This document shows, piece by piece, positions 15,602 through 18,752 of a stretch of 20,964 nucleotides of DNA. The notes beneath the pieces are model-generated. The model made no database searches. It was not told where the DNA came from and saw only the letters and a program-made list of their open reading frames with translations. How positions within the stretch are numbered: position 1 is the first letter of the stretch; each line of letters opens with the position of its first letter. This DNA is from a virus, in the IMG/VR virus record IMGVR_UViG_3300021197_001608, positions 1 through 20,964 of that record; one strand, written 5' to 3'. The position numbers and the translations under genes were made by a program.

Positions 15602-15629
15602 ATTATACAATATGTATACACGATGTCAA
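15602..15629 (-). promoter_or_regulatory. Consensus sigma70 promoter for the small-gene/tRNA operon
   Basis: Minus strand: perfect TTGACA (15629-15624), 16-base spacer, perfect TATAAT (15607-15602). It lies just after the tmRNA terminator and about 15 bases before the start of the 49-residue gene, so it should drive the run down to tRNA-Leu at 13750. Confidence 0.88.
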
Positions 15630-15646
15630 GAGGTTTATTTTCAGAT

Positions 15647-15681
15647 AAAAAGAAAACCCCCACATCTCTGCAAGGGTTTTC
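15647..15681 (-). terminator. Intrinsic terminator of the tmRNA gene
   Basis: Minus strand: GAAAACCC (15681-15674) pairs with GGGTTTTC (15659-15652) around a 14-base loop and is followed by TTTTT (15651-15647). It ends the tmRNA transcript and insulates it from the next promoter. Confidence 0.85.
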
Positions 15682-15734
15682 ATTAGGAACCCGTTCTGTT
15701 GACAAGTGGGTTAGTCTCCGCTTTGTGATTTACA

Positions 15735-15761
15735 TCACGCTGCAAGGGCAAAGTTGTTTGC
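15735..15761 (-). other. tmRNA tag reading frame: ANNFALAA
   Basis: Codons GCA AAC AAC TTT GCC CTT GCA GCG TGA give A-N-N-F-A-L-A-A-stop, with the ALAA end recognised by ClpXP-type proteases. If the resume codon is the preceding GGC, as the A four bases before it would suit, the tag is GANNFALAA. The start codon choice cannot be decided from sequence alone. Confidence 0.9.
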
Positions 15762-15858
15762 GCCGTTTGAAATTTACAACCATGATTGTCAAGTAGGTTG
15801 TCTCCTTGGGTATCTTCTTCTTTGTTACTCATTACCAAATCGATTCCGTTTCGCCCCC

Positions 15859-15933
15859 ATCAGAGACACCCTCGTAGCGTATAAAGTTTCTAATTAATCG
15901 TATCTGTTCTTAAATTTTAAACGAGGGTGCCTC
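15859..15933 (-). other. Intervening segment of the permuted tmRNA precursor
   Basis: These 75 bases lie between the CCA end (15934) and the mature 5' end (15858). Their ends form a 13-base stem with one G-U (15921-15933 with 15863-15875) stacked, across an ACCA/TGAT internal loop, on the tmRNA acceptor stem. The result is one long helix that processing enzymes would cut to release two RNA pieces, as in known permuted tmRNAs. The loop (15876-15920) is A/T-rich. Confidence 0.8.
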
Positions 15934-16131
15934 TGGTGGAGGCGGGGAGATTCGAACTCCCGTGTTCAGCAATTTTTACTCCGATATCAACAATACCAGT
16001 TTATTTATAAACAGTGTATGCTCCGCGTGTATCCCTTGCACACCTAGCAGAATCCCTACCCTTTCTGCTCCTGATATAATTATCCAGTAGGGAGGTAGCG
16101 TTAATTTAATAACTGCTTGCCCCCCTACTGG

Positions 16132-16408
16132 GTTGTTCGTGGACGGGAAGGATTAACATTTACCTTCAACTTTCAGGGTCATCTAGTTTGATTATTCCCT
16201 ACTCGCACTACGCTTGAGTCAGTTAAACTCTGCTACACTCATTTGAGCATTCACACCCCACTACAGGGAACCGCATACATTATTCTCAATAACAAAAAAC
16301 ATTCTGTCACCGTCCTATGCGGGAGTAATTAATTCCCACATATGTTATTCACTTGTCATAGAAAACGCTCGAATGGGGTTTCCCCCATCCAAGCAGAGAG
16401 AAACGGAA
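16132..16408 (-). other. Structured non-coding stretch upstream of the tmRNA
   Basis: No convincing gene is present. Several stems can be drawn: TTCCCT/AGGGAA (16195-16200 with 16265-16270) enclosing 64 bases with small inner stems, CCGCATA/TATGCGG (minus sense) over about 40 bases, and ATGGGG-GAAA-CCCCAT (16373-16388), a GNRA-capped hairpin just after the helix-turn-helix gene that may be its terminator. The remainder may be tmRNA leader, promoter or another small RNA. I could not identify a clear promoter. Confidence 0.45.
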
Positions 16409-16666
16409 TCAGCAGATTCCAGCACGGATGGCGTGTGGGTTATCCATATAACCGTGGAACTCCATTCCGTAAGAGGTCTTACCACTGGGGGTCTCATCGG
16501 TGTAGACGCTCCAGTTACCGTATGCTTCAACCTGCGACTTGATGTTGCTGATGGTTGCTCGCATGTTACCGACACCGAAACGACTTCGTGCCTGACTTGG
16601 GGTAAGCGTTCCACCCTTTGCAAGAAAATCCATGACTCGACGCTTCTTTGAAACTGTGTTGTTCAT
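16409..16666 (-). CDS. Small helix-turn-helix DNA-binding protein (85 aa)
   Basis: ATG 16666 follows GGAG with 8 bases. Residues 8-45 (KRRVMDFLAKGGTLTPSQAR then SRFGVGNMRATISNIKSQV) give a winged-helix/HTH pattern in which TPSQARSRFGVG is the first helix and turn and NMRATISNIK the recognition helix. Residues 48-70 look like a wing (YGNWSVYTDETPSGKTSYGM). This type of small HTH protein is common in T4-like phages and is thought to regulate transcription. The promoter in front contains a perfect operator-like palindrome, so autoregulation is plausible. It is followed by a GNRA hairpin. Confidence 0.78.
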   Translation of the reverse strand: MNNTVSKKRRVMDFLAKGGTLTPSQARSRFGVGNMRATISNIKSQVEAYGNWSVYTDETPSGKTSYGMEFHGYMDNPHAIRAGIC

Positions 16667-16755: not shown

Positions 16756-16784
16756 ATTGTACTACACCATTTGGTGTTTGTCAA
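16756..16784 (-). promoter_or_regulatory. Sigma70 promoter with an operator-like palindrome in the spacer
   Basis: Minus strand: perfect TTGACA (16784-16779), 17-base spacer and TACAAT (16761-16756). Inside the spacer lies the perfect inverted repeat ACACCA-AA-TGGTGT (16764-16777), positioned where a bound repressor would block polymerase. The -35 box overlaps the stop codon of the upstream 82-residue gene. It drives the HTH gene, the obvious candidate ligand. Confidence 0.75.
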
Positions 16785-17138: not shown

Positions 17139-17149
17139 TGTGGGTCAGT
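17131..17149. repeat. Inverted repeat at the tRNA-Lys 5' end
   Basis: ACTGACCC (17131-17138) and GGGTCAGT (17142-17149) are exact inverted copies separated by TGT. One arm is the first eight bases of tRNA-Lys, the other includes the stop codon of the DUF4406 gene. The precursor could form a hairpin competing with the tRNA acceptor stem; it may be a processing signal or a trace of tRNA insertion. Confidence 0.6.
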
Positions 17150-17537
17150 GTTTGTCTTTGTCTGGTAACGGTGCTTCGTAGTAGATATCCAAACCTACTG
17201 CTTTTGCTGTATGCCATTCTGCTCTTGCACCTCGACTGTTTTCCCAACCGGACATCATGTACATTGCAGTACAAACATCACAGATGGCAACCAAGTCTCT
17301 CTTAAGTGCTTCTCGCATAAATTCACGGTCTTCATAATCAGTGGCGGGATCAAACTCCAAGTGACCGTTTGGTGGTTCACCTTCTTGTCTGTCCATCTCC
17401 GCAGGATTGATTACTGACCAACCTTGAGTTTCAAGAACCTTTGCTTGGCGGTCAAAGGCAGGAAAGTTTCCATCCTCATAACCTCGCATCGGTCCTGCGA
17501 TATAAATTGTTGGTTGTCTATCTACACTCATTTTCAT
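17145..17537 (-). CDS. DUF4406 protein (nucleoside deoxyribosyltransferase-like fold)
   Basis: The 130-residue product has the DUF4406 signature: TIYIAGPMRGYEDGNFPAFD (10-29), then AKVLETQGWSVINPAEMDRQ (32-51), REFMREALKRDLVAICDVCT (71-90), AMYMMSGWENSRGARAEWHT (91-110) and AKAVGLDIYYE. This family resembles nucleoside 2-deoxyribosyltransferases and is frequent in phages; a nucleotide-related function is inferred only from the fold, and no product is known. Start is either ATG 17537 (MKMSVDRQ) or ATG 17531; no strong Shine-Dalgarno distinguishes them. It overlaps the end of the membrane protein gene upstream by 14-20 bases, so translation is probably coupled. Confidence 0.85.
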   Translation of the reverse strand: MKMSVDRQPTIYIAGPMRGYEDGNFPAFDRQAKVLETQGWSVINPAEMDRQEGEPPNGHLEFDPATDYEDREFMREALKRDLVAICDVCTAMYMMSGWENSRGARAEWHTAKAVGLDIYYEAPLPDKDKH

Positions 17538-17715
17538 GCCTGATTAGTCTGTCCAAATCTCTCTGAATAATTCCAGAAAGATTGGCGTTTGCTTGTCGAA
17601 GACTCTCGTTATCCTTTGAAAGTCTCTTAATTGATTCTCTATATTCTACACCACGGAATATGGAATACAAGCAAAAAGTCAAAAGAATAGTAAAAACTAC
17701 TAAAATTACTTCCAT
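17518..17715 (-). CDS. Small single-pass membrane protein with coiled coil (65 aa)
   Basis: ATG 17715 overlaps the guaC stop codon (TGATG) and has GGAG 8 bases upstream, so I prefer it to a longer frame reaching 17772. Residues 1-20 ([20 protein letters not shown]) form one membrane helix; residues 24-62 are a charged heptad-like helix (RESIKRLSKDNESLRQANAN then LSGIIQRDLDRLI). Topology resembles an inner-membrane spanin or other small anchor, but no lysis genes are adjacent and I do not assign it. Co-transcribed with guaC and DUF4406. Confidence 0.68.
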   Translation of the reverse strand: MEVILVVFTILLTFCLYSIFRGVEYRESIKRLSKDNESLRQANANLSGIIQRDLDRLIRHENECR

Positions 17716-18752
17716 CAAGAATCTCCAAACACAGTATTCAACTGGCGATTTACTCGAACAAAGGTCGTACACTTTGGAAGTTGCTTGAGTTTCCTTGCAC
17801 CTGTGTATGTACAGGCACTTCGGACACCACCCATGATGTCCTGTAGAGTATTCTCAACAGGTCCTCGATATGGCACCTGCACTGTCTTACCCTCAGACGC
17901 TTTGTAAGTCGCTACACCACCACTGTGTTTGTCCATTGCGGTGGTACTAGACATACCGTAGAACACCTTGTGAGACGCTCCAGAATCGTCTGTGACGAGT
18001 TCTCCTGCACACTCTTCGTGTCCAGCGAGCATTCCCCCTAGCATAACGAAGTCCGCACCTGCACCGAAGGCCTTTGCGACATCACCGGAGGATTGACACC
18101 CTCCATCCGCCATGATGAACCCGTCCAGTCCGTGTGCGGCGTCGGCGCATTCGATTACTGCGGACAGTTGAGGATACCCAACCCCCGCTACTTTCCTCGT
18201 TGTACATACACTGCCGGGTCCGATGCCAATCTTTACAATATCCGCTCCTGCAAGAATCAGTGCTTCCGTCATCTCCGCTGTCACTACATTCCCGGCGATT
18301 AGAACTTTGCTTGGCCATGCTTCTCGAACCTCCTCGACAAAATCAATAAACTTCTGTGAATATCCATTTGCAACATCTAGACAGAAGAAATCAAAGTTAA
18401 TACTAAATTCTGGTGCGAACGCATCAGTCAGTAACATCTCTTTGTCTTGTAGACCGAAAGAAAGAGCCATACTGTTTTTTTCTTTAGCAGTAAGTTCTGA
18501 GTATTTATATGGTTCGTCTTGATGTTTACTTAAACAAGTCAGCATATCATGGGAAGCAAGAACTCTGCCCATGTCAATTGTTCCTGTTGTGTCCATATTT
18601 GCGGCGACAATTGGAACACCAGTCCAAACTCTACCACATGGAAACTGAAATTTCCTTGTAAGGTCTACTTCTTTTCTTGAAGCGAGAGTAGAACGCTTCG
18701 GTCGAATCAATACATCACTATAATCAAGTTTCGTATCTTCAGCAATCTTCAT
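17715..18752 (-). CDS. guaC: GMP reductase
   Basis: The 345-residue product is close in length to E. coli GuaC (347) and keeps the whole IMPDH/GMPR barrel pattern: [13 protein letters not shown] (9-21), [13 protein letters not shown] (46-58), the active-site loop [20 protein letters not shown] with Cys183 and Thr185, [34 protein letters not shown] and [17 protein letters not shown]. No CBS domains are inserted, which together with FYGMSS separates it from IMP dehydrogenase. It reduces GMP to IMP with NADPH, returning guanine nucleotides to the purine pool. ATG 18752 has AGGAGA 6 bases upstream. It lies directly after tRNA-Ile and overlaps the membrane protein gene. A GMP reductase in a phage is uncommon and likely an acquired metabolic gene. 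Confidence 0.95.

Follow-up and report, generated by a model that had tools for sequence, protein, structure and literature searches.

A circularly permuted two-piece tmRNA gene encoded by a marine T4-like phage and its manA RNA neighbour

Results

The tmRNA gene and its parts

The window, that is, the whole stretch of 20,964 nucleotides analysed here, carries a circularly permuted (two-piece) tmRNA gene on its minus strand at 15997–15683. The features of the locus are given below in the direction of the gene. Loci other than that of the window are designated by L numbers.

16756..16784, minus: sigma70-like promoter TTGACA-17-TACAAT (11/12 matches), candidate for the ORF-manA-tmRNA transcript
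16409..16666, minus: 85-aa ORF preceding manA; by eye it resembles the one in the same place in L349
16137..16340, minus: manA RNA (RF01745), directly upstream of the tmRNA, from a low-threshold local Rfam search
16084..16131, minus: 12-bp hairpin between manA and the tmRNA, lacking a T run; a hairpin stands here in L349 too
16002..16009, minus: TATAAATA, tentative T4 late promoter-like motif immediately before the acceptor piece
15934..15997, minus: acceptor piece (ARAGORN, Rfam RF04321, helices paired in relatives; 5' end inferred from pairing)
15997-15992, minus: P2a strand GGTATT of the acceptor piece
15973-15965, minus: P2b strand of the acceptor piece
15961-15945, minus: T-arm
15944-15938, minus: acceptor 3' strand CGCCTCC, followed by the discriminator A
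15936-15934, minus: encoded CCA
15859..15933, minus: intervening segment (IVS) of 75 nt, expected to be removed
15934-15922 and 15874-15862, minus: arms of the 13-bp IVS stem, which joins the two pieces
15683..15858, minus: coding piece (ARAGORN, Rfam, helix check; 3' end approximate)
15858-15852, minus: acceptor 5' strand GGGGGCG
15839-15831, minus: P2b strand of the coding piece
15814-15809, minus: P2a strand GATACC of the coding piece
15801-15776, minus: P3 hairpin
15735..15764, minus: tag frame GGC GCA AAC AAC TTT GCC CTT GCA GCG TGA, GANNFALAA* (ARAGORN)
15738-15725, minus: stop-codon hairpin
15712-15688, minus: 3' hairpin
15647..15681, minus: intrinsic terminator of the tmRNA transcript (13-pair stem 15681-15652 plus T run)
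15602..15629, minus: sigma70-like promoter TTGACA-16-TATAAT of the next transcript (12/12 matches)

ARAGORN called a permuted tmRNA (tmRNA*), with the tag GANNFALAA, at 15644–16026 of the minus strand. The permuted family of Rfam (RF04321, tmRNA_permuted) matched 15735–15997, scoring 65.9 bits where the cut-off is 47 bits (E 5.8e-11 over the window). Both place the acceptor piece first, then the intervening segment and the coding piece, which is the order that a first-pass annotation had read from the letters. The RNA ends that it had proposed, 15934 after the CCA and 15858 at the start of the coding piece, agree with the sequence as predicted ends. Its upper limit for the gene, 16131, is the first base of the separate 12-bp hairpin after manA, and the tmRNA probably starts near 15997. 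All features of the tRNA-like domain are present, namely a 7-bp acceptor stem, the T-arm and the CCA. The acceptor strands had been described as pairing perfectly; all seven positions are indeed paired, but one pair is a G3-U70 wobble and not strictly Watson-Crick. This G3-U70 pair is the identity element for alanyl-tRNA synthetase. The tag frame ends in a conserved degradation signal (ALAA).

The predicted fold of 15997–15640 is 5.1 SD below dinucleotide shuffles (z-score –5.1). This value and the recurrence of the arrangement in other viral contigs with compensatory changes indicate that the tmRNA signal is more than chance. A chance resemblance or a tRNA-like fragment, for which a weak match of the plant microRNA model MIR477 to the IVS hairpin could be cited, has practically no probability left: it is refuted by the agreement of two independent programs (ARAGORN and Rfam), by covariation and by the syntenic relative L349. 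The locus is confirmed as a phage-encoded permuted tmRNA.

Conservation in related phages

Two pattern scans for permuted tmRNAs were run on viral contigs, and their counts are lower bounds for the matches listed. ARAGORN found tmRNA genes in at least 172 of 344 sequences, a set that includes the window, overlapping loci and some bacterial loci. The closest relatives among the matches listed, which have the acceptor piece in common, are L371, L353 (with L376), L377, L378 and L379. In a helix check, P1, the T-stem, P2b, the IVS stem and P3 were paired in all six aligned sequences, and P2a in all five that include it. Pairs changed on both sides were seen in P2b (two, with 9/9 pairs kept in the six sequences), the IVS stem (one) and P3 (one). 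In L349, the IVS stem is a 14-bp version with further changes and kept pairing; P2b pairing is less clear there. The stop-codon hairpin remains paired in three of these loci (L349, L371 and L353), as does the 3' hairpin in two (L349 and L371). The window, L349 and L040 encode one and the same tag peptide, GANNFALAA, and their codon differences are synonymous only, which argues that the tag frame is translated. The window and its relatives add a subgroup of marine T4-like phage tmRNAs whose structure the compensatory changes support.

These data also bear on the idea that the gene is a non-functional, decaying passenger which came from a host or by shuffling of the RNA island. The position of the tmRNA varies within the RNA island of related phages, the Rfam score is low, and L003, the closest gp32 relative with manA, has no tmRNA match. 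However, the helix changes are compensatory, the tag changes are synonymous only, and a promoter and a terminator are present. A decaying passenger is therefore considered highly improbable.

Transcription signals

The layout of the window is sigma70-like promoter, ORF, manA, tmRNA and terminator, and the claim of the first-pass annotation that the tmRNA has its own terminator holds. At 16395–16366, after the ORF and before manA, there is a hairpin with a short T run, at which some transcripts may end. In this region promoter-like sites do not outnumber those in shuffles, and therefore the promoter assignments are tentative. The motif TATAAATA occurs three times in the window, with 0.38 expected per strand. 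Its exact form was not found in L349, L353, L371 or L379, nor upstream of the window's structural genes. It might be a late promoter, but for these reasons that reading was set aside. Use of the tmRNA late in infection had also been proposed; the sequence does not show it, since the clear nearby promoters are sigma70-like and the exact TATAAATA motif does not precede the window's structural genes.

The manA RNA next to the tmRNA

The manA element at 16340–16137 matches the full-length model with 51.1 bits (E 7.5e-12), slightly under the cut-off of 55.2 bits. In another scan, of seven phage manA copies, five scored 49-55 bits and two reached the cut-off. A pattern scan followed by a profile search, with a profile built from four copies including the window's own, recovered 20 distinct manA copies from phage contigs. 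A tmRNA is present as well in eight of the 20: the window, L349, L353, L371, L354, L375, L373 and L368, the last two being counted through the same-contig loci L377 and L378. What directly follows manA differs. The window and L349 have the tmRNA in this place, about 12 contigs have an unnamed RNA beginning CGTTCY, L003 has a terminator and L354 a terminator-like hairpin. On the other hand, the tmRNA lies just upstream of manA in L354 and L374.

The order in L349 equals that of the window: a similar ORF, a hairpin, manA, a hairpin, a permuted tmRNA and a terminator-like hairpin. The L349 tmRNA carries the same tag, and an ORF further downstream resembles the next ORF of the window. The 85-aa ORF of the window has a weak match to PHROG 4973 (unknown function). 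The window's manA is not in the 5' UTR of a protein gene, the next gene being the tmRNA. A blastn search of the manA region against GenBank phages gave no match, and no description of the manA–tmRNA pair was found in the literature searched. What is added here is this manA–tmRNA tandem, in the window and L349; phage two-piece tmRNAs as a kind were already known.

Separately, an RNA-like element stands right after manA in several phages. It is conserved, among others, in L368:1392-1497, L371:5045-5155 and L348:5768-5868, and it was also seen in L361:8629-8729, L365:4104-4212 and L357:5119-5222. The predicted structure has an outer stem CGTTCC/GGAACG and a GATGANGTAAGATTCATTA hairpin, and three of 17 predicted pairs are changed on both sides. 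No Rfam family matched this element in the loci scanned; its identification as wcaG was rejected on that ground.

The tmRNAs of L354:5176-5696 (+) and L374:2728-3248 (+) are permuted and have an ORF of ~67 codons inside the intervening segment. They lack an encoded CCA, and manA follows within ~10 bases (by ARAGORN's end). The manA copies of L354 and L374 are identical, and the two probably represent one virus type. Another manA-bearing phage island (L375:6560-6893, +) holds a standard, non-permuted tmRNA with the tag GNNSYSRAA.

The phage and its host

PHROGs matches in the window comprise T4-type structural proteins and a single-strand DNA binding protein, in support of the earlier reading that a T4-like phage carries the permuted tmRNA. 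The single-strand DNA binding protein shows 62.6% identity with the HTVC008M protein across 82% of its length, and its marine cyanophage counterparts are similarly close. ARAGORN finds six tRNA genes in the island that holds the tmRNA.

The tmRNA had been expected to point to the host lineage. This expectation was not supported. When 398 genomes sampled from Pseudomonadota were searched at the DNA level, no extended match appeared beyond a T-arm/CCA segment of ~30 bases, and no lineage-specific tmRNA model stood at the top of the matches in a low-threshold Rfam scan. The exact T-arm pattern occurred in only 10 loci of genome contigs, which are unrelated. Because the match is limited to ~30 bases in this sample, which is drawn from Pseudomonadota alone, the host lineage is not readable from the tmRNA, and the host inference was dropped. 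Cellular permuted tmRNAs above the cut-off in the 398 sampled genomes fall into a main group of ~97-162 bits and a lower group of 50-65 bits; the phage tmRNA, with its 65.9 bits, is below the main group and near the lower one.

Two other genes on the minus strand of the window were noted. A complete gene of the IMP dehydrogenase/GMP reductase family (PF00478) occupies 17715-18752, and its protein shares ~59% identity with a GMP reductase from a phage-collection record that bears a Salmonella name. A DUF4406 / nucleoside 2-deoxyribosyltransferase-like protein is encoded at 17145-17537, in the tRNA island.

Discussion

tmRNA rescues ribosomes that have become stuck and marks the incomplete proteins with a tag. 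The form of the present gene, its helices, its conserved tag, its flanking signals and its recurrence were established by computation. The locus is very probably best explained as a phage two-piece tmRNA that would form the 3'-most part of a promoter-ORF-manA transcript and that would be processed, charged and active in tagging. We infer its transcription, processing, charging and tagging, and a benefit to the phage, as follows. The transcript would most likely begin from the sigma70-like promoter at 16784, run through the 85-aa ORF and manA, and include the tmRNA as its last part; judging from the sequence, it would end at the terminator 15681-15647. The tRNA-processing enzymes of the host would excise the 75-nt intervening segment at 15934/15858. 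The products would be an acceptor RNA and a coding RNA, joined through P1 and P2. Host AlaRS would charge the former with alanine via the G3-U70 pair. With host SmpB, the complex would move into ribosomes that have stalled on broken or decaying mRNA, append a tag composed of the charged Ala and GANNFALAA, and then release the ribosomes. The ALAA end would direct the tagged product to ClpXP-type proteases. Tagging of phage or host proteins by the phage tmRNA, as the first-pass annotation suggested, is possible.

No SmpB match came from 12 related phage contigs (fragments for the most part), so the tmRNA would depend on host SmpB. The same result would suit a decoy or inhibitor, that is, an RNA that is charged, binds SmpB and ribosomes, and mainly interferes with host tmRNA. 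A precedent is the tag-less tmRNA-like RNA of phage DS6A: its expression in E. coli inhibits the endogenous tmRNA (PMC11915505). However, the tag frame of the window is intact and ends in ALAA, and the encoded peptide is conserved, all codon changes in it being synonymous. A pure decoy would have no need of such a tag, and thus the conserved tag counts against it and makes this explanation improbable.

Two-piece tmRNAs have been described in phages by Buchholz et al. (2022; PMC9004378), who reported that of the Methylophilales phage Melnitz and 53 distinct ones in phage genomes. Melnitz and related marine myophages resemble the window in that a T4-like marine myophage carries a permuted two-piece tmRNA. 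The Melnitz tmRNA gene is reported to have an attached structured RNA, a predicted glutamine riboswitch (PMC9004378). This RNA is in the 3' domain, whereas the neighbour RNA of the window is manA and lies upstream. In the GenBank phage collection, no match covered 80% of the tmRNA region, and the matches listed cover 8% of the query. The cellular permuted tmRNAs of Alphaproteobacteria, Betaproteobacteria and Cyanobacteria (RF04321; RF01849-RF01851) have the same acceptor-IVS-coding order as the window, and also an alanine-type acceptor stem, an encoded CCA and an ALAA-type tag in common with it. In contrast, the bit score of the window is lower than that of their main group, its tag begins with Gly, and DNA similarity to the sampled Pseudomonadota is limited to ~30 bases. 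The result is a confirmation that complete ribosome-rescue RNAs occur in marine T4-like phages.

The manA motif (RF01745) was described by Weinberg (2010; PMC2864571) and in S-CREM1 (PMC9964418), and the element of the window matches its whole model, at a score slightly under the cut-off, in a T4-like marine phage. Earlier descriptions put manA in possible 5' UTRs of metabolic protein genes (PMC2864571, PMC9964418). Here and in related phages, however, it lies among tRNA and other RNA genes and is followed by the tmRNA, the unnamed RNA or a terminator. It might be speculated that manA and the tmRNA form a working unit, in which manA belongs to a non-coding transcript and controls or helps to process the tmRNA, although we regard this as rather doubtful. 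If it is true, manA would not be solely a metabolite switch before protein genes. The recurrent manA link offers a concrete genomic setting for asking what the uncharacterised manA does.

Tags of 29 residues were also predicted by ARAGORN for permuted tmRNAs of viral contigs. Their sequence is ANDNALSNVTFVDFSAPVTAVNEDFALAA in L237, L241, L261, L269 and L333, and AKKSTTFASILPVKVERVSLVQEALAASA in L246 and L250.
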